Shown here one piece after another: positions 32,434 through 43,856 of a stretch of 64,000 nucleotides of DNA. The stretch is from Roseovarius autotrophicus (GTDB taxonomy: Bacteria; Pseudomonadota; Alphaproteobacteria; Rhodobacterales; Rhodobacteraceae). Position 1 is the stretch's first letter; every line of letters begins with the position of its first letter. Made by a program: the position numbers and the translations under genes. The stretch is from NCBI RefSeq assembly GCF_018069895.1, contig NZ_JAGQDH010000004.1:1-64000 (forward strand), written 5' to 3'. The notes beneath the pieces are model-generated. The model had not been told where the DNA came from and made no database searches. It was given only the letters and a program-made list of their open reading frames with translations.

Positions 32434-32622
32434 ATGGGCATCAATACCGAGCGCGACATCGAGGCCAATCTTCAGATCGGGCCAACGGATCAAGGTATGG
32501 TGCGCCTGTTCATAGAGGCGCAGGGCCTTGAGCTTCCGATGGATTTCGATCCAGAAGAAGCTGAGGAAATCGCTGAGGAAATCCGCGCCGCAGCACAGGC
32601 CGCGCGGCTCAAGGGATCATGA
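32434..32622 (+). CDS. Small conserved acidic protein (DUF6324-like)
   Basis: 62 residues, acidic: M-G-I-N-T-E-R-D-I-E-A-N-L-Q-I-G start and D-F-D-P-E-E-A-E-E-I-A-E-E-I helix. I recall close relatives across Rhodobacterales under DUF6324, with unknown function. AGGAGGGCTCC precedes the ATG. Its 3' end overlaps the convergent mmcB by six bases. Confidence 0.72.
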   Translation: MGINTERDIEANLQIGPTDQGMVRLFIEAQGLELPMDFDPEEAEEIAEEIRAAAQAARLKGS

Positions 32623-33057
32623 ACCGGGATCGGTAAACTGCCGCAAGCGGCGTGCGGCATCGCGGGCAAAGCGACGGACAAGCGCGGTGCGCCGGGCCGG
32701 TGCAAGGCGGTTCTCCGGTGCCATGCGCAGAATCTCGGCATCATAATCGTCAGCAATGATCAGGCCGGTTCCCTCGGGCAACAAATCGGTGGGAAAACCG
32801 GCATCGACAGCCCAGAAATACCGGTCGCACCAGTCAAGATAGCCCGGCCACTTGCCGTCACTCATGAAATCGGCGCGACTCGACTTGCACTCGATCACCC
32901 AGATCTCGGCCCTGGGCCCGAGCGCCATGACATCGACCCGCCGCCCGCGTTCGGGGATAAATTCCTCGATCGTCACGAAATCATGGGTCATGAGATGGCG
33001 GCAGACGCCACGCGCAAGCCGCTGACCGGGAAGACGGGGGCGGGACTCCTGTATCAT
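32617..33057 (-). CDS. mmcB: MmcB-type DNA repair protein
   Basis: 146 residues, a compact PD-(D/E)XK-like fold with R-R-V-D-V-M and W-V-I-E-C-K-S-S-R-A-D-F, then D-G-K-W-P-G-Y-L-D-W-C-D. MmcB was described in alphaproteobacteria as an SOS-induced factor for mitomycin C resistance. A perfect alphaproteobacterial LexA box lies 11 bases upstream of the start, agreeing with damage induction. Confidence 0.88.
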   Translation of the reverse strand: MIQESRPRLPGQRLARGVCRHLMTHDFVTIEEFIPERGRRVDVMALGPRAEIWVIECKSSRADFMSDGKWPGYLDWCDRYFWAVDAGFPTDLLPEGTGLIIADDYDAEILRMAPENRLAPARRTALVRRFARDAARRLRQFTDPGS

Positions 33058-33068
33058 GGCACGATTAT

Positions 33069-33083
33069 GAACAAAAAGGGAAC
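33069..33083. promoter_or_regulatory. LexA (SOS) box upstream of mmcB
   Basis: GAACAAAAAGGGAAC is an exact match to the alphaproteobacterial LexA site GAAC-N7-GAAC (the complement of GTTC-N7-GTTC). It lies 11 bases before the mmcB start codon, where bound LexA would block the promoter. The 6S RNA gene begins about 45 bases to the other side. Confidence 0.8.
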
Positions 33084-33127
33084 ACGCGCAACCCCTTGTC
33101 GCGAAGGCAACAAGCGCCTAATTGAAA

Positions 33128-33295
33128 GGGGTGACGGGTGCTGCCCTTCTCGATAGCGGTTGCATTCCGGTGGCCTTAAGCAATTCCGAGGGAGCTGGCT
33201 CTGTCCGGACCCTGGTCCGGTTACCCGGCGCCCACCTGTATAAACAGGTCCTCGGGAATGAGAACACCGAACGGCTGCGGCGGGCCCGTCACTTC
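33128..33295 (+). ncRNA. ssrS: 6S RNA (SsrS)
   Basis: About 160-170 nt with the 6S architecture: terminal arms GTGACGGG (33131-33138) and CCCGTCAC (33285-33292) pair perfectly, enclosing a long imperfect duplex with a central bubble. The internal strand TTCCGGTGGCCTTAAGC and the opposite segment resemble alphaproteobacterial 6S RNAs as I remember them. 6S RNA binds sigma-70 RNA polymerase as a promoter mimic and adjusts transcription in stationary phase. The ends are approximate. Confidence 0.72.
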
Positions 33296-33351
33296 AATGC
33301 TCCTGACATCGAACAAAAACCATCCGACGGCTGACCCGGATCAGGCGGGGA

Positions 33352-33366
33352 TGGTAGGCCCGGAGG
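33352..33366. repeat. attL core of the integrated satellite
   Basis: TGGTAGGCCCGGAGG is identical to 43077-43091, the 3' end of the tRNA with anticodon CAT including its CCA. Sequence differs immediately outside on both sides. This is the chromosomal tRNA 3' end displaced by integration; bases to its left are original host sequence (6S RNA side). Confidence 0.88.
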
Positions 33367-33451
33367 CTTTCAGCACGCTTCCAAGTATCAATCGCTTGCA
33401 CTGGCGAACCCGGCCAGCGCTTCCATTGAAAACATTGAAGAAAATCGCGCT

Positions 33452-34426
33452 TTGGCGAACCGCCCGCCGGACCCTGAAAATGCGAACCCCGGCGCGCTGG
33501 CGGGCGCAACCGGGGCGAACAGCATAGAGAAAAAGGCGGCGAGCCTCGAACCGAAGGAATACAGCAACACCCCGGCCCGCGCAAGCCTGTCCGTTGTCAC
33601 CGACTGGCACCGGAACCGCTGGGCATGGAAGCGGGCTGTTCTGGCCGATCGACGCCTTGCAGACCGCGCCAAGCTTCTGGCCACCGTTCTGGTGGACACC
33701 TTCGCCAACTGCGAAACCGGGCGCTGCAACCCCTGCAATGACACCCTAGCCGAGACGCTGGGCAAGGACGTTCGCAGCATCCGGCGGGCGGTTGCGGAAC
33801 TGCGCGCGGCGGGCTGGATCGACACCCGCACCGGGCGCGGACGCGGCGCGCGGATCGCCTTCATCTTCCTGACCGGGGACGGAACCGTCCCGATCGCAGA
33901 CCCGAGAAAGGTTGCAGAAATGGCCGCATATCGCAGCGAACCGCCCCGCGAAAGGCGGACAGATGTGTCCGCTTATCAGACCGAAAAGCGAACACCGGAA
34001 CCTGCCGAAAGGCGGACACCCGCGTCCGGAAAGGCGGACAGAACTGTCCGGGTATTACATAGAACCAAAGAAAAACCAAATACGCGCGCACACGCGAGGC
34101 CCGCCGAGGCTGACCATTCCCAAGCCCGAAGGCCAGCGAATGCGCGGCCCGTCCCGTTCAGCCGCTGCGTGCATCGCGGGACCAGCGCCGAGGCGGATTG
34201 GAACCGCTGGCTTGCCGATCGACGATTGCCGGACCTGTCGCAAATCGGCCTGCGCGCATCGGATCCCGAGGGGCCGGGCTGGGATATGCCCTGGAAGTTT
34301 CCACCGCCTGCGAACGATCTTGACCGCACCGAGAAGGCCGAGCGGTTCGCATGGTGGCTTGTCAACATCGCCAACGACCGGGCGCGCAAAGCGGCACCGG
34401 CGCACGCTCTGGCGGCGGGGGGCTGA
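33452..34426 (+). CDS. Winged-helix replication-initiator-like protein, start lost to the att site
   Basis: From the only usual start in the integrated form (TTG at 33452) it is 324 residues, but the frame is open back to 33335 with no ATG or GTG and no SD. In the excised circle the frame continues through the att core to ATG 43069, giving 360 residues beginning M-G-F-G-R-P-G-G-F-Q-H. The HTH lies about 95-150 residues into that form (N-D-T-L-A-E-T-L-G-K-D-V-R-S-I-R-R-A-V), of the type seen in phage replisome organisers. The C-terminal half is Arg/Pro-rich then a Trp-containing helical region. A replication role is inferred from the domain and from comparable satellites. Confidence 0.68.
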   Translation: MANRPPDPENANPGALAGATGANSIEKKAASLEPKEYSNTPARASLSVVTDWHRNRWAWKRAVLADRRLADRAKLLATVLVDTFANCETGRCNPCNDTLAETLGKDVRSIRRAVAELRAAGWIDTRTGRGRGARIAFIFLTGDGTVPIADPRKVAEMAAYRSEPPRERRTDVSAYQTEKRTPEPAERRTPASGKADRTVRVLHRTKEKPNTRAHARPAEADHSQARRPANARPVPFSRCVHRGTSAEADWNRWLADRRLPDLSQIGLRASDPEGPGWDMPWKFPPPANDLDRTEKAERFAWWLVNIANDRARKAAPAHALAAGG

Positions 34427-35188: not shown

Positions 35189-35698
35189 ATGAGAATTGTG
35201 CAGGAATTACCGGGACTTGATGGCGACCGCGCTGTTGTGCGCATCGGCGGGGCCGACCTTTGCACCCTTCTGCGCATATCCCCCGCCGCCTTGACTGCCC
35301 TTGTTCAGCGCGACCTTGCAGTGAGGCTTGGCCGGGACAATTACGATCTGACCGAGACTGTCGGACGCTACACCGAGCATCTGCGCGGCATTGCCGCCGG
35401 GCGCGGCGGGGAAGCTGAAAGCCTGACCCTGACCGGAGAGCGGGCGCGGCTGGCGCGCGCGCAGGCTGACGCGCAGGAACTGAAAAACGCCAGCCTGCGC
35501 GGGGAACTGGTCAAGGCCGAGGACGTGGCGCGAGAATGGGCCGACATTCTGCGCGGGTTGCGGTCGCAGCTACTGGCCATCCCGTCCCGCCTGCGCGCCG
35601 ATCTGGGCCACCTGACCGCCGCCGATGTGGCGCAGATCGACCGGGCCTTGCGGGACGTTCTGACCGAAATAGGGGGCGGCGATGCACGGACAGATTGA
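35189..35698 (+). CDS. Terminase small subunit (Nu1-like)
   Basis: 169 residues. The N-terminal winged-HTH-like part is followed by the long helix E-R-A-R-L-A-R-A-Q-A-D-A-Q-E-L-K-N and L-R-G-E-L-V-K-A-E-D-V-A, characteristic of lambda Nu1-type small terminases that recognise cos and stimulate the large subunit. The frame overlaps the large terminase by 17 bases. A GGGGCTGAA leader precedes the ATG. Confidence 0.82.
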   Translation: MRIVQELPGLDGDRAVVRIGGADLCTLLRISPAALTALVQRDLAVRLGRDNYDLTETVGRYTEHLRGIAAGRGGEAESLTLTGERARLARAQADAQELKNASLRGELVKAEDVAREWADILRGLRSQLLAIPSRLRADLGHLTAADVAQIDRALRDVLTEIGGGDARTD

Positions 35699-37475
35699 AG
35701 CCATCCGCGCCAAGGCCCTGCGCGCGCTGATTCCGCCGCCGCGCCTGCGTCTGTCGGAATGGATTGAAAAAGAAATCCGGTTGCCGGACGGCCTGACCGC
35801 GCAGCCCGGCCCAGTTCGCCTGTGGCAGTTTCAGCGCGACATTGCCGACGCAATCGGGGATCCGCTGATTGAGCGCGTCACCCTGATCAAGCCTGTCCGA
35901 GTCGGATTTTCAACGATCCTGACCAGCGCTGTCGCGGCATTCGTGGCCAACGAACCAAGCGCCATTTTGTGCCTGTTGCCGACCGAGGCCGATTGCCGCG
36001 ATATGGCCGTGTCAGAACTGGAACCGATCTTCACAGCGTCCCCGATCGTCGCTGACGCGCTGTCCGATGACCGCGACGAAGCTGGCCGGAACACCCTGCT
36101 GTCGCGCCGGTTCCCCGGCGGTTCGTTGAAGATCGTCGCGGCCCGCGCACCGCGCAACCTTCGCCGCCATTCGGCCCGCGTCCTGCTGATTGATGAGGCC
36201 GATGGAATGGACGCCACGGCGGAAGGATCCCCGATCACCTTGGCCGAGCGCCGCACCCTGTCATTCCCTGACCGCAAGATTGTTCTTGGCAGCACGCCGG
36301 TTCACGAAGAAACCAGCCATGTGTTGCGCGCCTATGCGCAAAGTGACCAGCGCGTGTTCGAGGTTCCATGCCCGGAATGCGGAAGCTTCACCGAAATCCT
36401 TTGGCAGCATATCATCTGGGACCCTGACCAGCCTGAAACTGCCCGGTTCCGTTGTCCCCATTGTGAAGGCGAGATAGCCGAGCGAAACAAGCCCGGCATG
36501 GTCGCGCAGGGAACGTGGCGCACCACCCGGCCCGAGGTCAAGGGCCATGCCGGGTTCCGGATGAATGCCCTTGTAAGCCTTCACGCGAACGCATCATGGG
36601 CCAAGCTGGCGGCGGAATTTCTTGCAGGGAAAGATGACCCGCAGGCCCTGCAAGTGTTCACAAACACCATTCTGGGCGAGGCATGGCGAGGCGAGGGCGA
36701 GGAACTGGCCGAAGCCGATCTTGCCGCCCGCGCCGAACCTTTTAGCCTGGACAAAATCCCCGCCGAGGTTCTGGCACTGACCGCCGGGGTTGATGTCCAG
36801 CATGATCGCCTTGAACTGACCTTCACCGGCTGGACCGAAGCCGGGCAAGCGCTGATTTTGGACCATCGCGTGATCTGGGGCGGCTATGAGGATCCCGAGA
36901 CATGGCAGGCCCTTGACGATCTGTTGCGCACGCGCTGGCCGCACGCGCTTGGCGGGCGCATGGCGCTGGACGCCTGCGCCGTGGACGCCGGGGACGGGGC
37001 CAGCATGGCGCAGGTTCTGGCCTTCACCACGCCGCGCCTGCGCGCGCGGATCGTGGCCATCAAGGGCGCAAGCGGCATGGCCCGCCCGATCATTGAGAAA
37101 TCGGCCACGCGCAGCAAGACGGGCGCGCCCCGGCCCTTGTGGATCGTCGGAGTTGACGCCGCAAAAACTGTCCTATTCGCCAAGCTGGCGCAGCCCGGCG
37201 CGGTTCGGTTCAGCGACCGCTTGCCGGAAGTCTATTATGAGCAACTTACCAGCGAACGCGCGGTTGTGCGTTATCGCAGGGGCGCGCCTGTCCGATCGTT
37301 TGAGCGGATCGCGGGGCGGCGGGCGGAAACCTTGGACACCGCTGTCTATGCGCTGGCCGCGCGCCAGTTGGTCACGATCGACCCCGAGCGGCGGCGGGCG
37401 GAACTGTCCAGTGACCGGGCCGACAAGACGCGGGCCGGGCCGGTCCTGAAATCTGAATGGATGACCCGGCGATGA
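35682..37475 (+). CDS. Terminase large subunit (lambda gpA type)
   Basis: 597 residues, near full length for GpA-type terminases. The ATPase has a Walker A variant K-P-V-R-V-G-F-S-T (about 70-78), Walker B L-L-I-D-E-A-D (168-174) and a zinc-knuckle C-P-E-C (230-233)/C-P-H-C (258-261). The nuclease half has T-A-G-V-D-V-Q-H-D-R-L-E and D-A-C-A-V-D-A-G-D-G acidic clusters. It packages DNA into proheads and cuts cos. Confidence 0.93.
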   Translation: MHGQIEAIRAKALRALIPPPRLRLSEWIEKEIRLPDGLTAQPGPVRLWQFQRDIADAIGDPLIERVTLIKPVRVGFSTILTSAVAAFVANEPSAILCLLPTEADCRDMAVSELEPIFTASPIVADALSDDRDEAGRNTLLSRRFPGGSLKIVAARAPRNLRRHSARVLLIDEADGMDATAEGSPITLAERRTLSFPDRKIVLGSTPVHEETSHVLRAYAQSDQRVFEVPCPECGSFTEILWQHIIWDPDQPETARFRCPHCEGEIAERNKPGMVAQGTWRTTRPEVKGHAGFRMNALVSLHANASWAKLAAEFLAGKDDPQALQVFTNTILGEAWRGEGEELAEADLAARAEPFSLDKIPAEVLALTAGVDVQHDRLELTFTGWTEAGQALILDHRVIWGGYEDPETWQALDDLLRTRWPHALGGRMALDACAVDAGDGASMAQVLAFTTPRLRARIVAIKGASGMARPIIEKSATRSKTGAPRPLWIVGVDAAKTVLFAKLAQPGAVRFSDRLPEVYYEQLTSERAVVRYRRGAPVRSFERIAGRRAETLDTAVYALAARQLVTIDPERRRAELSSDRADKTRAGPVLKSEWMTRR

Positions 37476-37840: not shown

Positions 37841-38452
37841 ATGGCTTCCTTGTTTGACCAAATCATAGACACAGCGACCGCTGCGACCGGGTTGCCCCGG
37901 ACAGACACATTCGGGGTTGCCCGCGTGCTCCGCGAAAGGGGACTGTTCCCGCGCATGTCCCGAGCGATTGACACGCAAGTTGTGTCGGACGCTGAACTTG
38001 CGCGCCTAGTGCTAGCTTGCATGTTCCGCCGCCCGGCAACAAAGGCCCCAGATTTCCTGAAGGAAATGGAAGAGGCGGAAATCACCACGGCCAGCCATGA
38101 AGCGATTGCCGCCGCGTTGCCACTGTCAGATTTCCCGGCCTTAACCGATCTGGCGCACCCCGGCTTGAACGTGATCGAAGCCCTTGCGGCACTGATCCGC
38201 ACCGCCCGGCGCGCGCCGATTGTGTTCGAGCAACGCGCATTCAATTCTGTTCTGGAAATGGACCTGCTGCGCCGTTCCGCCGAACTCTATCTGGAAATCG
38301 ACGCGCAAACCCCGCTGACCTATGACGTTCGCACCCATTTGGAGTTTGAACCGTTCCGCCAGTTTCATCGCGGGGCTTTGAGCCATACCGCCCGGCTACC
38401 TATTCGGGCGGTCTGTGCGATTGCCGATGCCGCAGAAAGGACGCCCGAATGA
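37841..38452 (+). CDS. Unknown satellite protein between terminase and portal
   Basis: 203 residues, mixed alpha/beta with no transmembrane segment and no motif I recognise; it starts M-A-S-L-F-D-Q-I-I-D-T-A-T. It separates the terminase from the portal gene, where lambda carries only gpW, and has its own upstream hairpin and palindrome, so it may be separately regulated. The stop overlaps the portal ATG (ATGA). Candidates include a head-assembly accessory, a helper-interference factor or an adaptor to helper tails; none can be chosen from sequence. Confidence 0.65.
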   Translation: MASLFDQIIDTATAATGLPRTDTFGVARVLRERGLFPRMSRAIDTQVVSDAELARLVLACMFRRPATKAPDFLKEMEEAEITTASHEAIAAALPLSDFPALTDLAHPGLNVIEALAALIRTARRAPIVFEQRAFNSVLEMDLLRRSAELYLEIDAQTPLTYDVRTHLEFEPFRQFHRGALSHTARLPIRAVCAIADAAERTPE

Positions 38453-39783
38453 TCGCCCTGCGCGACATGATCGCCCGCCTGCGCGGCAAGCCCGAACCGC
38501 GCCACGCGCGCCATATCGAGGCCGGGGGCGGCGGCTGGCGCTGGTCCGGCACCCCGACGCTGGCCGCGCCGAACAATGCCATTCTGGCCGCGCATACGCC
38601 TGCCCGACACCGCGCCGCAGCACTGGCCGCGAATTCCGCCGTTGCCGCCGCCGCTGTCGAAAGCTGGACCGCAGCCCTTGCGGGCGCTGGCGGCTGGCAG
38701 GTTCGCCCCGGCCATCCTGACCGGGACACCGCCGCCGCGCTGGCCGACGAATTCGAGGCCATCATTCACCCGGCCTTGCCGATCGTCGCGCGCGCCTTGT
38801 GCCGCGACGGCGAAAGCTTCACCCGAATCGTGACCAGCGCCGACCGGTTCCGGGTTCGGCACTTGCCCGCTGGACAGATCGACGCCAGCTTGACCCGAAA
38901 CCTTGAGGGCGACCGGGCCATTGTCGCAGGAGTCGAAATCGACGGCGACGACGAACCGATTGCTTATCACGTTCACCGGACCCCGCCGGACGCACCCTTT
39001 AACCTTCTGGGCGAAACCGTCCGGATCCCGGCGGATGAGGTCCTGCACATCTTTGACCGCCAGCACCCCGGACAAATTCGGGGCTTGACATGGCTTCACC
39101 CGGCCCTTGCCAAGCTGTCCGATTTCGACGCCGCCAGTGATGCAATGCTGATGAGCCTGAAAACCCAAGCCCTGTTCGCCGGGTTCATAATCGACTTGAA
39201 CGGGGGAACCGGCGGGTTCGACGGAAACGAAAGCGGCGGGGCGGTCAATCTGGCGCTGGAACCCGGCGGCATGAGATTTCTGCCCGCCGGAACCGATATT
39301 AAATTTGCGCAACCCGGCGGCGGCCTATCGCAGCAAGCGGAATTCCTGAAAATCCAGCTTCACGAAATCGCTGCGGCGCTTGGCCTGCCGTATGAAATGC
39401 TCACGGGCGACTTGTCCGAAACCAACTATTCAAGCGCACGGTTCAGCGCCCTGCAATTCCGCCGCCGGGCGGAAATGCTGCAAAAAACGCTGATTGAAGG
39501 CCAGTTTCTGCGCCCGCTATGGCGGCGGTTCATTGCTTGGAAAGCGCTTACCGGGGACCTACCCGCCGATGCCGCTGCATCGCCTGACTACAAGGTCACG
39601 TTCACCCCGCCGGGCTGGCCGACGATCGACCCGCTGAAAGAAACCAACGCCGACATTCGGGCGCTGGAATCTGGCCTGAAATCCCGTGCCGAAATCATCG
39701 CCGCGCGGGGCCGGGACCCGGATGAAGTGGACCGCGAGATTGAAGCGGACCGCATCCCGGCGCGGCAGGAAGGTGCAACATGA
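38449..39783 (+). CDS. Phage portal protein (lambda family)
   Basis: 444 residues. The order of elements fits lambda B-type portals: basic N-terminus, A-L-C-R-D-G-E-S-F core strand, I-P-A-D-E-V-L-H-I-F-D-R, G-Q-I-R-G-L-T-W-L-H-P-A-L and G-L-P-Y-E-M-L-T-G-D-L-S-E-T-N-Y-S-S-A-R. The portal forms the dodecameric DNA entry vertex and docks terminase. It overlaps the upstream gene by ATGA and the protease by four bases. Confidence 0.93.
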   Translation: MIALRDMIARLRGKPEPRHARHIEAGGGGWRWSGTPTLAAPNNAILAAHTPARHRAAALAANSAVAAAAVESWTAALAGAGGWQVRPGHPDRDTAAALADEFEAIIHPALPIVARALCRDGESFTRIVTSADRFRVRHLPAGQIDASLTRNLEGDRAIVAGVEIDGDDEPIAYHVHRTPPDAPFNLLGETVRIPADEVLHIFDRQHPGQIRGLTWLHPALAKLSDFDAASDAMLMSLKTQALFAGFIIDLNGGTGGFDGNESGGAVNLALEPGGMRFLPAGTDIKFAQPGGGLSQQAEFLKIQLHEIAAALGLPYEMLTGDLSETNYSSARFSALQFRRRAEMLQKTLIEGQFLRPLWRRFIAWKALTGDLPADAAASPDYKVTFTPPGWPTIDPLKETNADIRALESGLKSRAEIIAARGRDPDEVDREIEADRIPARQEGAT

Positions 39784-40151
39784 CCATTCATCTGCGCGCG
39801 GTCACGCCGCGCCCGTCAACACTGGACCCGCAGGCCCGCACGATCGAGGCCATTGTTTCGACCGGCGCGCCTGTGATCCGCAGCGGGTTTGAGGAGCGGC
39901 TTGACCTGTCCGGCGCCGATCTGTCGCGCCTTATCGGCGGTCCCGTCCTGGACGGCCACCGGAGCGAAACCACGCGCGACCAGCTTGGAGTGATCGAGGC
40001 GGCGGAAATCCGCGCCGAGGGCCTTTGGTGCCTGATCAAGTTTCGGAGCAATGAGGCCGCAAAGGCCGTCATGGCCGACATTGCCGAGGGGACAATTCGC
40101 GGAATTTCCATCGGATATACTGTCCAAGAATGGAAGGAGATTCACGAGTGA
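39780..40151 (+). CDS. Prohead protease (peptidase U35), C-terminus split off
   Basis: 123 residues with the HK97-type protease core: V-L-D-G-H-R (His60) and G-T-I-R-G-I-S-I-G-Y (Ser110), the expected catalytic pair. It stops at E-W-K-E-I-H-E. The usual following segment of this family, L-E-V-S-V-V-P-V-A-A-D-P, is encoded in the next frame at the start of the capsid gene, whose GTG overlaps this stop (GTGA). The protease processes scaffold and capsid N-termini during head maturation. Confidence 0.8.
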   Translation: MTIHLRAVTPRPSTLDPQARTIEAIVSTGAPVIRSGFEERLDLSGADLSRLIGGPVLDGHRSETTRDQLGVIEAAEIRAEGLWCLIKFRSNEAAKAVMADIAEGTIRGISIGYTVQEWKEIHE

Positions 40152-41551
40152 AACGCCGAATTCGCGTTGCGACCCGCTGGACCCCGCTGGAAGTGAGCGT
40201 GGTTCCTGTCGCGGCCGACCCTACTGCACACTTTCGACATGGAGAATCGAGCATGGAAACGGAAATGATCGAGACCGCCACCACCACGGCGGAAACCAAC
40301 CGCGCGGAAACCAACCGCGAGATCCGCAGTATTGCGCGCCTGGCCGGGCTTGGCGATGAATGGGCAAACGGCCAGATTGACGCCGACGCCAACGCCGAGG
40401 ATGCCCGCACCGCGGCATTCGCAGAAATGGCCACGCGGCAAGCGCAGACCCGCACCCGCACGGCCCGCGCCGAGATCCTGACGGATCACAATGACCCGGC
40501 GGTTGTGATCGCCCGCGCCGGGGAAGCCATTTTTGCCCGGTCGCATCCCGAACACCAGATTTCCGAACCGGCCCGCGCTTATGCCGGCATGAACTTTGCT
40601 GATCATGCCCGCGAAAGTCTGCGCCGCGCCGGGATTTCCACAACCGGCATGGCAGCGGAAACCATGATCACGCGGGCGCTGCACACCACGTCAGATTTCC
40701 CGCTGATCCTGGGCGATGCCGTCAACCGGGAATTGCGCCGGTCTTATCAAGCGCCCGTGTCTGGCGCGCGCCTGATGGCACGCCAGACCACCAACCGCGA
40801 TTTCCGGACCAAGCGGCGGCCCATTCTGGGCGAGGCCCCGGCCCCGAAACAGGTCATGGAGGGCGGGGAATTCCAGCATGGCACGATCGACGAAGCGGCG
40901 GAAACCTACGCGGTTTCGACCTTCGGGCGGATTATCTCGGTTTCCCGGCAAATCCTGGTCAATGACGACCTGGGGGCCTTCACCCAAGTCCCCGCCGCAA
41001 TGGGCACCGCTACGATGAATTTCGAGGCCGCGCAGCTTGTGGCCAAGATCGAGGGCAACGCGCAAATGTCTGACGGCATCGCGGTCTTTGACGACGCGGG
41101 CCACGGGAACGACCTGACCGGCAACAGCGAAATCACCCCGGCGCTGGCCATCATGCGGACAGCCATGCGGCGCAAGACGGGCCTGTCCGGCGCACCGATC
41201 GACGTGGCCCCGCGCTATGTCCTGGTCCCGCCGGAACTGGAAACCGCGATGCAGAAGGCGCTGGCCGAAATCCAAGCCACTGCAACCGAGGATTTCAATC
41301 CGTTCAGCAACCTGACGCTGGTTGTCGAACCCCGGCTGACCAGCGCGACCAAATTCTACATGGTCGCGGATCCACAGATCGTGGACGGGCTGGAATATGC
41401 CTATCTGGAAGGCGCACCGGGGCCGCAGATCGAAACCCGCGCCGGGTTCGAGGTTGACGGGACGCAAATCAAGGTCCGGCTGGATTACGGTTGCGGATGG
41501 GTGGACTATCGCGGCTGGCACCGCGCCGAACACGATCCTGAGGCCGAATAA
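40148..41551 (+). CDS. Major capsid protein with the protease C-terminal segment at its N-terminus
   Basis: 467 residues from GTG 40148, which has AAGGAG eight bases upstream. The first 35 residues (T-R-W-T-P-L-E-V-S-V-V-P-V) look like the end of a U35 protease. A second start, ATG 40253 with GGAGA seven bases upstream, would give a free capsid of 432 residues. The capsid region has a helical N-terminal delta-domain rich in Arg/Ala/Glu, then an HK97-type fold with I-L-V-N-D-D-L and F-T-Q-V-P-A-A-M. Internal fusion or separate products cannot be settled by reading. Confidence 0.82.
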   Translation: MKRRIRVATRWTPLEVSVVPVAADPTAHFRHGESSMETEMIETATTTAETNRAETNREIRSIARLAGLGDEWANGQIDADANAEDARTAAFAEMATRQAQTRTRTARAEILTDHNDPAVVIARAGEAIFARSHPEHQISEPARAYAGMNFADHARESLRRAGISTTGMAAETMITRALHTTSDFPLILGDAVNRELRRSYQAPVSGARLMARQTTNRDFRTKRRPILGEAPAPKQVMEGGEFQHGTIDEAAETYAVSTFGRIISVSRQILVNDDLGAFTQVPAAMGTATMNFEAAQLVAKIEGNAQMSDGIAVFDDAGHGNDLTGNSEITPALAIMRTAMRRKTGLSGAPIDVAPRYVLVPPELETAMQKALAEIQATATEDFNPFSNLTLVVEPRLTSATKFYMVADPQIVDGLEYAYLEGAPGPQIETRAGFEVDGTQIKVRLDYGCGWVDYRGWHRAEHDPEAE

Positions 41552-41766
41552 TGCCGATCGAGGCTGACGAACTTGTCCAGTTGCGCGATGCCCTTCTGAG
41601 GGCGCGCGCGGCTGGCACGCGGTCGCTGTCCTATGAGGGGAAATCCTACACCTATGCCAGCGACTCGGAAATGGCCGCTGCGCTGGCCGATCTGGAACGG
41701 CGCATTGCACGCGCGACACGCCCCGCGCCTGGCGCGCTTCGCTTCCTGACTTCCAAGGGGTTGTGA
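41551..41766 (+). CDS. gpW-like head-completion/connector protein
   Basis: 71 residues. The pattern L-R-D-A-L-L-R-A-R-A-A-G-T-R-S-L-S-Y-E-G, Y-T-Y-A-S and A-A-L-A-D-L-E-R-R-I matches the gpW family, which closes the filled head and offers the tail-binding surface. In lambda gpW lies between terminase and portal; here it follows the capsid gene. In a tail-less satellite this is where a helper tail would have to attach. It shares one base with the capsid stop. Confidence 0.8.
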   Translation: MPIEADELVQLRDALLRARAAGTRSLSYEGKSYTYASDSEMAAALADLERRIARATRPAPGALRFLTSKGL

Positions 41767-41769
41767 CCC

Positions 41770-41952
41770 ATGCCAAACCGGCCCGCCACGGTAAAACAGG
41801 CTGACGTGACACGCGCCGTCAAGGGCGCTGTCGCGGCTGGTCTGGCCGTGGGCAGGGTCGAGATAGACCAGCGCAACGGAAAGGTCATCATCTGGCCGGC
41901 TGGCGCGTCTGACGGCACGTCCGGGAACGAGTGGGACGAGGTTCTAAAATGA
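41770..41952 (+). CDS. Small integrase-linked protein (possible directionality factor)
   Basis: 60 residues: V-K-Q-A-D-V-T-R-A-V-K-G-A-V-A-A-G-L then V-G-R-V-E-I-D-Q-R-N-G-K-V-I and W-D-E-V-L-K. Proteins of this shape often precede integrases in alphaproteobacterial elements; their role is not established to my knowledge. It overlaps the integrase ATG (ATGA), so the two are co-translated. A role as accessory or excision factor is inference. Confidence 0.6.
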   Translation: MPNRPATVKQADVTRAVKGAVAAGLAVGRVEIDQRNGKVIIWPAGASDGTSGNEWDEVLK

Positions 41953-43067
41953 AGCCGTCCCGGTTCCCCAAGGCCAAGGCATACCGCGACCGGCACGGGC
42001 GCACGCGCTGGCGGTTCCGCCATCGAGGCTTTGCGCGCGAACTGGGAACCGACTTTGGCAGCGACGATTTCAAGCGTCGCTATGCCGAGGCCGAGGCCGA
42101 ACTTATGGGGCCGGGGCGCGCCGGGGCCGGAGCGGATCGCACGATCCCCGGCACCCTGTCCGATCTGGTCATCAGCTATTACAAGTCCCCTGAGTGGCGC
42201 GGCCTGTCGGAAAGCAGCAAGCGCACCTATCGCGGCCCGATCGAGCGCCTGCGCGTCCAGCACGGCGACAAGCGCATTGCCGCGCTTGAGCGCAGGCACG
42301 TCATGGCCATTCTGGCGCAGAAGGTCGATACCCCGGCGGCGGCGAACAACCTGCGCAAGCGGCTGGCGCAGCTTCTGGACCATGCAATTGCGCTGGACTG
42401 GATCAAGGCCAACCCCGCGCGCCTGGTCAAACCCTATCGGATTGAAAGCAGCGGGTTCCACGCCTGGGACGAAGGCGAAATTGCCCGTTTCTTCGAGGTT
42501 CACGAACCCGGCACGCTGGCGCATCGCGCGGTCACGCTGATGCTTTACACGGGCGCGGCCCGTGTCGATGCCGTCAAGCTTGGCCCGTGGAACATCAAGG
42601 GCGGGCGGATCGAATACCGCCGCCAGAAAACCATTCGCAGCAATGGGGTTCTGGTCAGCATTCCCATTCACCCGGATCTTGCCGAAGTGCTGGCCAGCCT
42701 GCCCGATGATCGCCCCTTTCTGGCCACGGCATATGGCAAGCCACGCTCACCCGAGGGCCTTGGCAACGTCATGCGCGAATGGTGCGACAAGGCCGGGCTG
42801 TCCACCTGTTCAGCCCACGGCCTGCGCAAAGCCTGCGCCCGGCGGCTGGCCGAGGCTGGCGCAACTGCGCATGAAATCATGGCCGTGACGGGCCACAAGA
42901 CGTTGGCCGAGGTCCAGCGCTACACCGAATCTGCAATGCGCGAGGGGCTGGCAGATCAAGCCTTCGCCAAGCTGATTTCCCGGCCAAATCGGGAACAAAC
43001 CGTGGTGAACCTACCCCGTAGGTTCGCCAAAAATGACACCCAAGCATCTGAAATGAAAGGAAAATAA
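41949..43067 (+). CDS. Tyrosine-type site-specific integrase
   Basis: 372 residues: an N-terminal arm-binding domain, a SAM-like core-binding domain (about 70-165) and the catalytic domain with Arg205 in T-G-A-A-R, Lys227, H-G-L-R (His290/Arg293), G-H-K-T (His316) and Tyr325 in V-Q-R-Y. The first Arg is one residue later than in the usual T-G-x-R motif. It would integrate the element at the tRNA 3' end. The gene ends two bases before an ATG that begins the 5' part of the replication-like gene in the excised circle. Confidence 0.94.
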   Translation: MKPSRFPKAKAYRDRHGRTRWRFRHRGFARELGTDFGSDDFKRRYAEAEAELMGPGRAGAGADRTIPGTLSDLVISYYKSPEWRGLSESSKRTYRGPIERLRVQHGDKRIAALERRHVMAILAQKVDTPAAANNLRKRLAQLLDHAIALDWIKANPARLVKPYRIESSGFHAWDEGEIARFFEVHEPGTLAHRAVTLMLYTGAARVDAVKLGPWNIKGGRIEYRRQKTIRSNGVLVSIPIHPDLAEVLASLPDDRPFLATAYGKPRSPEGLGNVMREWCDKAGLSTCSAHGLRKACARRLAEAGATAHEIMAVTGHKTLAEVQRYTESAMREGLADQAFAKLISRPNREQTVVNLPRRFAKNDTQASEMKGK

Positions 43068-43076
43068 CATGGGGTT
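43057..43076 (+). promoter_or_regulatory. Orphaned SD and ATG of the replication-like gene, beside attR
   Basis: AAGGA (43057-43061) lies seven bases before ATG 43069, whose codons GGG-TTT-GGT-AGG-CCC-GGA run into the att core. In the chromosome they continue into tRNA sequence and reach a stop after about 20 codons. In the excised circle they join 33367 in frame and become the start of the gene ending at 34426. Confidence 0.8.
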
Positions 43077-43091
43077 TGGTAGGCCCGGAGG
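43077..43091. repeat. attR core within the tRNA 3' end
   Basis: TGGTAGGCCCGGAGG, identical to 33352-33366, is the complement of the tRNA 3' acceptor strand and CCA. The element-borne copy has restored a complete tRNA gene after integration, the usual strategy of tRNA-targeting integrases. Confidence 0.88.
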
Positions 43092-43153
43092 GACTCGAAC
43101 CCCCAACCAAGGCGTTATGAGCGCCCTGCTCTGACCAATTGAGCTACAGGCCC
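43077..43153 (-). tRNA. tRNA with anticodon CAT, probably tRNA-Ile2
   Basis: Minus-strand cloverleaf: acceptor GGGCCTG with CGGGCCT (G-U at pair 1-72 and at 6-67), D-arm GCTC/GAGC, anticodon stem GGGCG/CGCCT with loop CTCATAA, T-stem GGGGG/CCCTC with TTCGAGT. CCA is encoded. The segment CGCCTTGGT after the anticodon resembles tRNA-Ile2 (lysidine-modified) more than elongator tRNA-Met, but amino-acid identity is not certain. Its 3' end is the integration site. Confidence 0.88.
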
Positions 43154-43243
43154 GGCCTGACCACCTGCTACCATGTCGCGGGCGGGCGTCAAGGCTTTCG
43201 TGCGGGCTGGACAGGGCGTGCGGACGGGCCTAGCATCCGGGGC

Positions 43244-43585
43244 ATGACCGATTGGGACGGCAGGCGCTGGCATGACATGGGCGGACAGGACGCAGGGCCT
43301 GTGCCGATGGAGGGACATGATTTCGCGCTGTGGGAAAAGCGCGTGGATGCGCTGATGGTGCTCTGCGGGCAAAAGGGGCTTTTCACCGTCGATGGGTTGC
43401 GCCGCGCGCTTGAGGACATGGGCGAGGAGGCGTTCGAAAAATACAGCTATTACGAACGCTGGATCGCCGCCGTGAACCAGAACCTGATCGAGGCCGGGGT
43501 CTACAGCATCGAGGAACTGGCCGCGCGGATGGATGAGGTGGCCGCGCGCGGCGAGAGCTATGGCGAGGCGCAGTCGAATGGCTGA
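43244..43585 (+). CDS. Nitrile hydratase beta subunit, N-terminal half (separate chain)
   Basis: 113 residues. H-D-M-G-G-Q-D at the start and S-Y-Y-E-R-W-I-A-A-V-N-Q-N-L-I-E-A-G-V-Y match the helical N-terminal half of nitrile hydratase beta subunits. The C-terminal half is encoded by the next gene, overlapping by eight bases. Thiocyanate hydrolase and toyocamycin-type nitrile hydratase have this three-chain form. The chosen ATG gives the conserved start; the longer frame covers the tRNA region. Confidence 0.78.
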   Translation: MTDWDGRRWHDMGGQDAGPVPMEGHDFALWEKRVDALMVLCGQKGLFTVDGLRRALEDMGEEAFEKYSYYERWIAAVNQNLIEAGVYSIEELAARMDEVAARGESYGEAQSNG

Positions 43586-43856
43586 GCGGGTGCGTGTGAA
43601 GGCGCTGACGCCGCCCGGGCATGTGCGCGCGCCCTTCTACCTGCGCGGCAAGGTGGGCGTGATCGAGCGCACGCTCGGCGAGTTCGGCAATCCCGAGCAA
43701 CTGGCCTATGGGCTGCCTGCCGAGCGAAAGCCGCTCTACCGCGTGCGCTTTACCATGGCCGAGATCTGGGGCGCGCGGGCCGAGCGCCCCGGCGACACGC
43801 TCGATGCCGAGATCTATGGCCACTGGATCGAGAGACTTGACGCCGATGCCCCATGA
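43578..43856 (+). CDS. Nitrile hydratase beta subunit, C-terminal SH3-like half (separate chain)
   Basis: 92 residues: P-G-H-V-R-A-P-F-Y-L-R-G-K-V-G-V-I-E-R, then P-L-Y-R-V-R-F and H-W-I-E, the beta-barrel half of nitrile hydratase beta. It overlaps both neighbours (eight bases with the first, eleven with the alpha gene), so stoichiometric translation is likely. Confidence 0.82.
   Translation: MAERVRVKALTPPGHVRAPFYLRGKVGVIERTLGEFGNPEQLAYGLPAERKPLYRVRFTMAEIWGARAERPGDTLDAEIYGHWIERLDADAP

Follow-up and report, generated by a model that had tools for sequence, protein, structure and literature searches.

An attachment site inside the first gene behind the integrase of a satellite-like element in Roseovarius autotrophicus, with matching reading frames across the ends of related elements

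INTRODUCTION

In Tn916, the transfer genes are expressed after circularization of the element; this control is transcriptional, and no open reading frame (ORF) is known to span the joint. Capsid-forming satellites (cfPICI) are small elements with their own terminase, portal, protease, capsid, and adaptor genes. Here, we analyze a stretch of 64,000 nucleotides from Roseovarius autotrophicus (contig NZ_JAGQDH010000004.1 of assembly GCF_018069895.1, positions 1 to 64,000; henceforth, the window), which holds a 9.7-kb element whose attP would lie inside the first gene behind the integrase gene int (gene X). The element resembles cfPICI in gene set and differs from them in having this attP-spanning gene. 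With Tn916 it would share circle-only expression next to the joined ends, but an ORF across the joint is not known from Tn916.

Four further systems invite comparison. In mycobacteriophage BPs and its kin, attP lies within the repressor ORF beside int, integration removes the 3' end of this ORF, and the shorter repressor is active (PMC4557955). As in this type of integration-dependent immunity, attP in the window lies inside an element ORF next to int, and integration alters the product of that ORF; unlike in BPs, it is the start (5' end) that is removed, the gene is replication-like or unassigned rather than a repressor gene, and integration would silence it. The archaeal suicidal integrases of SSV1, pTN3, and pT26-2 are split at att upon integration and are whole in the circle (PMC8371274). 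The element in the window likewise has a gene that is split at the att site and would be whole in the circle, but int remains whole (its stop codon at 43065-43067 precedes the core at 43077), and it is the gene behind int that is split. In ICEKp1, the joined ends of the excised element set which promoter drives int (PMC13023037). Joining of the two ends would matter for expression in the present element as well; in ICEKp1 it acts at the promoter level and on int, whereas here a start codon and a reading frame are exchanged. Finally, helper-embedded satellites reside within a helper gene and thereby delay it (PMC10111431). A literature search, conducted mostly without subscription journals and thus weak as evidence of absence, gave, among the papers listed, none that evidently dealt with an attP at which excision gives a gene other than the integrase gene its start or frame back, and none on phage 16-3.

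We conclude that attP of the element probably lies inside its replication-initiator-like first gene, so that integration cuts off the only start preceded by a Shine-Dalgarno (SD) sequence, circularization is predicted to rejoin start and gene in frame behind int, and gene X would be a circle-stage protein. The geometry, the frames, and the lack of other SD-preceded starts are read directly, and from them we infer expression, timing, and an effect on replication.

RESULTS AND DISCUSSION

The start and the open frame of gene X lie at opposite ends of the element

The element is a stretch of 9725 bp flanked by two exact 15-bp copies of TGGTAGGCCCGGAGG, which we read from the sequence as the left (33352-33366) and right (43077-43091) att cores. 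On the minus strand, the right copy forms the 3' end of the gene for tRNA-Met(cat), the integration target (43077-43153 by ARAGORN; Rfam tRNA score of 67.4 bits at 43080-43153). Because the two copies are identical, any crossover point inside the core yields the same junction.

The right end carries a start module on the plus strand (43057-43076) that consists of AAGGA (43057-43061; an SD of 5 bases), a spacing of 7 bases, ATG (43069-43071), and GGG TT, followed directly by the core. The original prediction had placed AAGGA two bases after the integrase stop codon; it lies before this codon (TAA, 43065-43067), in the last integrase codons, and it is the ATG that begins two bases past the stop. 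The distance of 8 bases from ATG to core sets phase 2. At the left end, phase 2 gives 352 open codons past the core, the remaining phases having 20 and 52, and the beheaded replication-like gene is open from the core to its stop codon (33353-34426, plus strand; HTH_36 domain at about 33701-33820). In the matching frame, the host flank has 6 open codons and no ATG, GTG, or TTG; the earliest possible inner start is the TTG at 33452, which has no SD. By arithmetic, the predicted frame in the circle is 23 + 1060 = 1083 bases, or 361 codons including the stop.

These readings bear out the original prediction in that the left-end gene has neither ATG, GTG, nor SD ahead of TTG 33452, and its coordinates and arithmetic for a frame kept across the joined ends hold, with both ends in phase 2. 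Also upheld is its central proposal that attP is within the gene and that integration removes the start, since the sole SD-preceded start is at the right end; the geometry further agrees with a circle in which the gene is predicted to stand directly behind int, in frame.

Starts open into the tRNA end are common at the right ends of related elements

The geometry in the window counts as more than chance because relatives show it too; the split gene is confirmed and is wider than the original prediction knew. A search with the integrase identified 9 viral loci as well as matches in 38 of 394 genomes of the family at an E value of 1e-60 or better, with the window's own genome counted; a search of plasmids gave 44 records, every one with <60% identity. 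From genomes, we used the best 80 of 477 loci of the integrase search. In 66 of these 80 loci, int ends at a tRNA gene that lies on the opposite strand, and the related elements occupy seven kinds of tRNA genes (Met, Lys, Arg, Ser, Asp, Cys, and Glu). A piece of the window's left-end gene used as query had no relative in viral_contigs and none in phage records; the integrase queries did succeed.

At 60 of 78 right ends, within ~31 bases, an SD of 5 or more bases accompanies a start codon whose frame stays open into the tRNA end; in 60 rounds of shuffling, the mean was 6.0 and the maximum 13. With an SD of at least 4 bases, the count was 71/78 (shuffled mean 21.3, maximum 29). One place, L066/L126, is counted twice among the 78 (L and P numbers are our handles for loci and proteins). 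The starts are ATG, GTG, or TTG, and their distance to the tRNA end ranges from 1 to 28 bases. A control set of 26 other tRNA ends, of which 12 had an SD of at least 4 bases, was discarded because L011, L013, L051, L052, L061, and L074, all among these 12, are ends of other elements, and shuffles were used instead.

Two kinds of right ends stood out. In the tRNA-Cys elements L155 and L156, the TTG start is 28 bases before the tRNA end, within a CCCTTG/CAAGGG inverted repeat. L014:5941, L085:10249, and L076:5814 have a Met-type core and a start, and no tRNA gene was found beyond; these may be secondary sites or rearranged ends.

The phase set at the right end matches the open frame at the left end

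Both cores were found in 41 elements. Among the best 80 loci, 8 were without an att-like right end and 38 without a left core in the available DNA, and 34 entered the set; of 20 further regions, six entered (L057, L062, L066, L070, L073, and L075), L059 being the place of L091, and the window brought the total to 41. No left core was found for L074/L171 and no left end for L130. Where several starts qualified, ATG was preferred over GTG and TTG, and then a longer SD. An SD-preceded start was present in 37 of the 41 elements, and its phase was that of the longest open frame at the left end in 36 of the 37. When phase labels were shuffled among elements, a match of 36/37 was reached 0 times in 20000; the binomial probability for this set is 1.7e-16, a figure that presumes an independence that related elements lack. 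Two tRNA-Glu cases add to the match. The right end of L187 and the left end of L181, on two contigs of one genome, are in phase 0, with 329 open codons compared to 20 and 7, and L184 is in phase 1, with 47 open codons compared to 15 and 3. In total, the frames match in 38 of 39 cases, with all three phases represented.

Phases were also recorded from right ends alone, before the left ends were searched. Of 14 loci named for this prediction, L117 and L130 were without a phase, which left 12 with a recorded phase; L093 lay at a contig end, and L126 coincides with L066, for which the left end was already known. The left ends of 10 loci were fetched, and all 10 fitted.

In the integrated state, starts that could replace the lost one are scarce. 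An in-frame start with an SD of 5 bases is present in the host flank in 1 of 37 elements (L062). The original prediction had raised the case of relatives whose genes start wholly inside the left end; as far as this was tested, in-frame starts within the first 60 codons were found in 4/37 elements with an SD of 4 bases and in 0/37 with an SD of 5 or more.

The spacing of putative arm sites shifts with the phase

In the window, putative left arm repeats with the sequence GGCGAACC lie on the plus strand at 33403-33410 and 33454-33461, that is, +51 and +102 from the TGG of the tRNA end. Wherever the search found such repeats in relatives, the first GGCGAACC-like repeat was 51 bases from this TGG and the second at 102 in phase 2 or 103 in phase 1. 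Repeats read by eye are at 52/104 in phase-0 L181 and 51/103 in phase-1 L184; those of L141, L145, and L150 were likewise judged by reading, and in L137 and L124 the second repeat alone passed the search. Thus, the second repeat shifts by a base with the phase, so that it is read in one frame whatever phase the core takes from the tRNA. In L123, the spacing is 51/102, and there is no start.

On the right side, the candidate arm repeats GGTGAACC (43004-43011) and its inverted counterpart GGTTCGCC (43021-43028) are on the plus strand within the 3' coding end of int. The integrases of relatives end in VVNLPxRF, which in the window is coded by the inverted GGTGAACC/GGTTCGCC repeats (43002-43064); int therefore overlaps the likely attP arms.

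Nearly fixed arm repeats and spacing could suggest that the constraints on attP DNA (core, repeats, and spacing) leave the frame open by accident. The match of three phases, the one-base compensation, the ten predictions that fitted, and the lack of stops in variable DNA described below make such a coincidence barely credible, and we already disfavor it.

Selection between core and second arm repeat keeps the frame open and leaves the residues free

From the core to the second arm repeat, in-frame stops occur in 0/37 elements, compared to 29/37 and 37/37 in the two shifted frames. Among 28 non-redundant (<70% identity) sequences of this region there were 0 stops, while shuffling of the variable bases gave a mean of 36.2 and a minimum of 19 in 2000 rounds. 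For this leader, 11 Lys-type sequences have a ratio of nonsynonymous to synonymous substitutions (dN/dS) of 0.97, with 0.66 and 1.33 in the shifted frames; in 15 Met-type sequences, the ratio is 0.95, with 0.82 and 0.96 in the shifted frames. Past the second arm repeat, the Lys-type product is mildly constrained, with a dN/dS of 0.68 compared to 1.06 and 0.88. An open frame with free residues indicates that translation must pass and that the peptide seems unimportant. The original prediction took the added residues for a natural protein N terminus; as a sign of a functional peptide this is unsupported, because the dN/dS of 0.95-0.97 is within the range of the shifted frames. The LA-AN motifs of these residues coincide with the arm-type repeats. 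With a neutral leader and with genes over attP that differ between elements (see below), what is conserved is translation through attP rather than a gene for replication.

Selection on openness and frame rather than on residues would also be expected if translation through attP served mainly to keep transcription from int running into the next genes of the circle by relief of Rho-type polarity, with the product of leader and gene X being secondary. For that purpose, however, almost any short leader ORF would do, irrespective of frame, yet the frame is tied to gene X, and Lys-type gene X shows the mild in-frame conservation past the second arm repeat; we regard this explanation as highly improbable.

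A hairpin lies past the second arm repeat, at 33487-33515 on the plus strand, with the sequence CCCCGG(C/T)GCGCTGGC(G/A)GGCGC..CCGGGG, coding NPGALAGATG (or ASG). It is also present in L085, L086, L111, L118, L020, L021, L023, L127, L182, and L183. Most of its third codon positions barely vary among 11 distinct copies, and the window's copy has a minimum free energy of -24 kcal/mol (z -2.3). This pattern suggests that the hairpin likely acts at the DNA or RNA level.

Unsplit versions of gene X are on record

The original prediction had proposed to search databases for ORFs restored across attP, and unsplit versions were indeed found (L021, P0006, P0151, P0087, P0144, and others). In L021, a viral contig, ATGGGGTTTGGTAGGCCCGGAGG runs directly into a 335-codon gene whose product is 58% identical to P0006; P0006 starts with MGFSRPD and carries HTH_36. 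P0151 (355 amino acids) starts with MTFGRPGG, has an HTH_36 score of 22.9 bits, below the cut-off of 25, and matches a PHROG for replication initiation. Further unsplit N termini are those of P0087 (MGFGRPGG), P0144 (MTFGRPGG), P0092 (MRFGRPGG), P0083 (MMGCGRPGG), P0011 (MISGEPCR), and P0012 (MRSGEPCR). In addition, P0128 (MTYQNVGFGRPGG) is similar to the L116 right end (ATGACTTACCAAAACAAGGCATTTGGTAGG), and P0108 (MKPWQPVG) to that of L051/L187. Unsplit proteins were chosen by eye and make up 1/10, 2/36, and 7/117 of three protein sets; the remaining proteins mostly begin in unrelated leaders or internally. A pattern search of viral_contigs found no unsplit Lys-type junctions, and the Met-type pattern gave L021 and L076. 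L076 was rejected as an unsplit gene; its frame ends after 10 codons, and its contig (48,857 bases) has the same length as that of L085.

Some listed proteins start further in. P0002 and P0003 begin at the residue of TTG 33452, from which the frame is open into the HTH domain, and P0009 and P0010 begin near the first repeat. The element could accordingly make two isoforms, as with the two forms of the BPs repressor: a long protein in the circle and a shorter one in the prophage, from TTG 33452 or another inner start. The codon at 33452 has no SD, and L021 and L023 have AAG instead of TTG there, which makes two isoforms improbable.

Gene X differs between elements and may be confined to the circle

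In the window, gene X matches HTH_36 with 39.6 bits (cut-off 25) and PHROG 270 and 391 (replication initiation/phage O-like). No repressor families were among the Pfam and PHROG matches of the element proteins. For gene X of L085, P0087, P0108, L142, L143, and L120, there was no Pfam or PHROG match, and the Lys type (L110) had none in Pfam. Because the type of gene X differs between elements, what the elements have in common is a gene that spans attP, and control of replication would be the special case of the window. The original prediction of an attP in a replication-like gene thus stands for the window and fails as a generality, the HTH_36 type being present in some elements only.

In the circle, which forms upon entry or excision, translation would continue through attP into gene X, carried out by ribosomes that have reached the end of int or have initiated at the SD within the last int codons, and integration would end this translation at once; if so, gene X is a circle-stage protein. 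Where it is an HTH_36 protein, as in the window, its likely role would be to support circle replication, and in the prophage it would be off. Translating through the core and arm sites would come at the price of a leader peptide, for this reason free in sequence and not in frame. For the clade of alphaproteobacterial tRNA-targeting integrases as a whole, we lean, with reservation, to the view that translation through attP lets an element sense the state it is in: the gene that comes first behind int would be circle-only and turned off on integration, and in elements like this one it would be an initiator.

The main rival is genome economy without regulation, in which attP overlaps the ends of int and gene X as a result of signal packing, gene X is translated in the circle from the start at attP, and its absence from the prophage carries no regulatory significance. 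The positions of the right-side repeats in int and of the left-side repeats in gene X, the neutral leader, and the differing types of gene X are in agreement with it. Against it, no second SD-preceded start keeps gene X on in the prophage (the 0/37 and 4/37 inside starts at an SD of 5 and 4 bases, respectively), and a compensating base keeps the frame in phase-1 elements. We consider economy alone rather unlikely.

Several observations weigh against the circle-stage reading of gene X. Among right ends, 7 of 78 are without an SD-preceded start, as are L123, L070, L073, and L075 of the 41 elements with both cores; the integrases of these four are 38-50% identical to that of the window, and others at 44-46% do have such a start. 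L145 is mismatched (37 codons in phase, 88 in another), and L118, L137, and L150 hold a weaker start candidate in another phase. Inner starts are suggested by the protein listings for P0009 and P0010 and by an in-frame ATG near the first repeat of L181, the latter without an evident SD. The unsplit proteins are candidate products of circles. The SD of L021 is weak, its 67 upstream bases are, by eye, unlike this integrase, and P0016 (MESGEPCR), from a 45,506-base contig like that of L097, illustrates that a host flank can supply a nearby ATG by chance. Selection on the leader peptide was expected and not found, the amino acids being unconstrained. The type of gene X is not conserved, which leaves a shared function hypothetical. 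No empty site was found, in that the left flank (32600-33351) and the tRNA-Met gene with the right flank (43077-43600) were not neighbors in the same-genus genomes listed. Lastly, L114:352-1760 is a 1.3-kb remnant made up of a core, a 63-codon gene X, an integrase gene, and a core.

If the circle-stage reading is correct, integration itself would be a switch at the protein level that requires no repressor for the gene concerned. Database entries for the first gene of many prophages and satellites of Alphaproteobacteria may then carry a foreign leader; P0015, from the contig of integrated L094, has such a leader, and P0001, P0004, and P0014 look alike. A frame across attP could help to place element ends and to spot circular forms in metagenomes.

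Other features of the element and its flanks

All 13 scanned genes between the cores, small ORFs among them, are on the plus strand. Based on profile matches, they include genes for the small (35189-35698) and large (35682-37475) terminase subunits, the portal protein (38449-39783), a prohead protease (39780-40151), the major capsid protein (40130-41551), and a head-tail adaptor (41551-41766). The gene between terminase and portal (37841-38452) has no Pfam or PHROG match. The tyrosine integrase gene extends from ATG 41949 to 43067, its frame being listed from GTG 41931. No tail or lysis families were among the matches of the 13 scanned proteins, 5 of which had no Pfam match above the cut-off and no PHROG match. 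The element thus encodes its own packaging and capsid genes, as capsid-forming (cfPICI-like) satellites do, and because no tail family matched, it looks like such a satellite; by gene content, this is a resemblance and not an established membership.

Of 40 genomes of the genus, 39 match the left flank. Positions 33135-33289 on the plus strand, immediately to the left of the element and pointing at it, likely encode 6S (SsrS) RNA, with a score of 43.9 bits, which is below the gathering score of 46.4.
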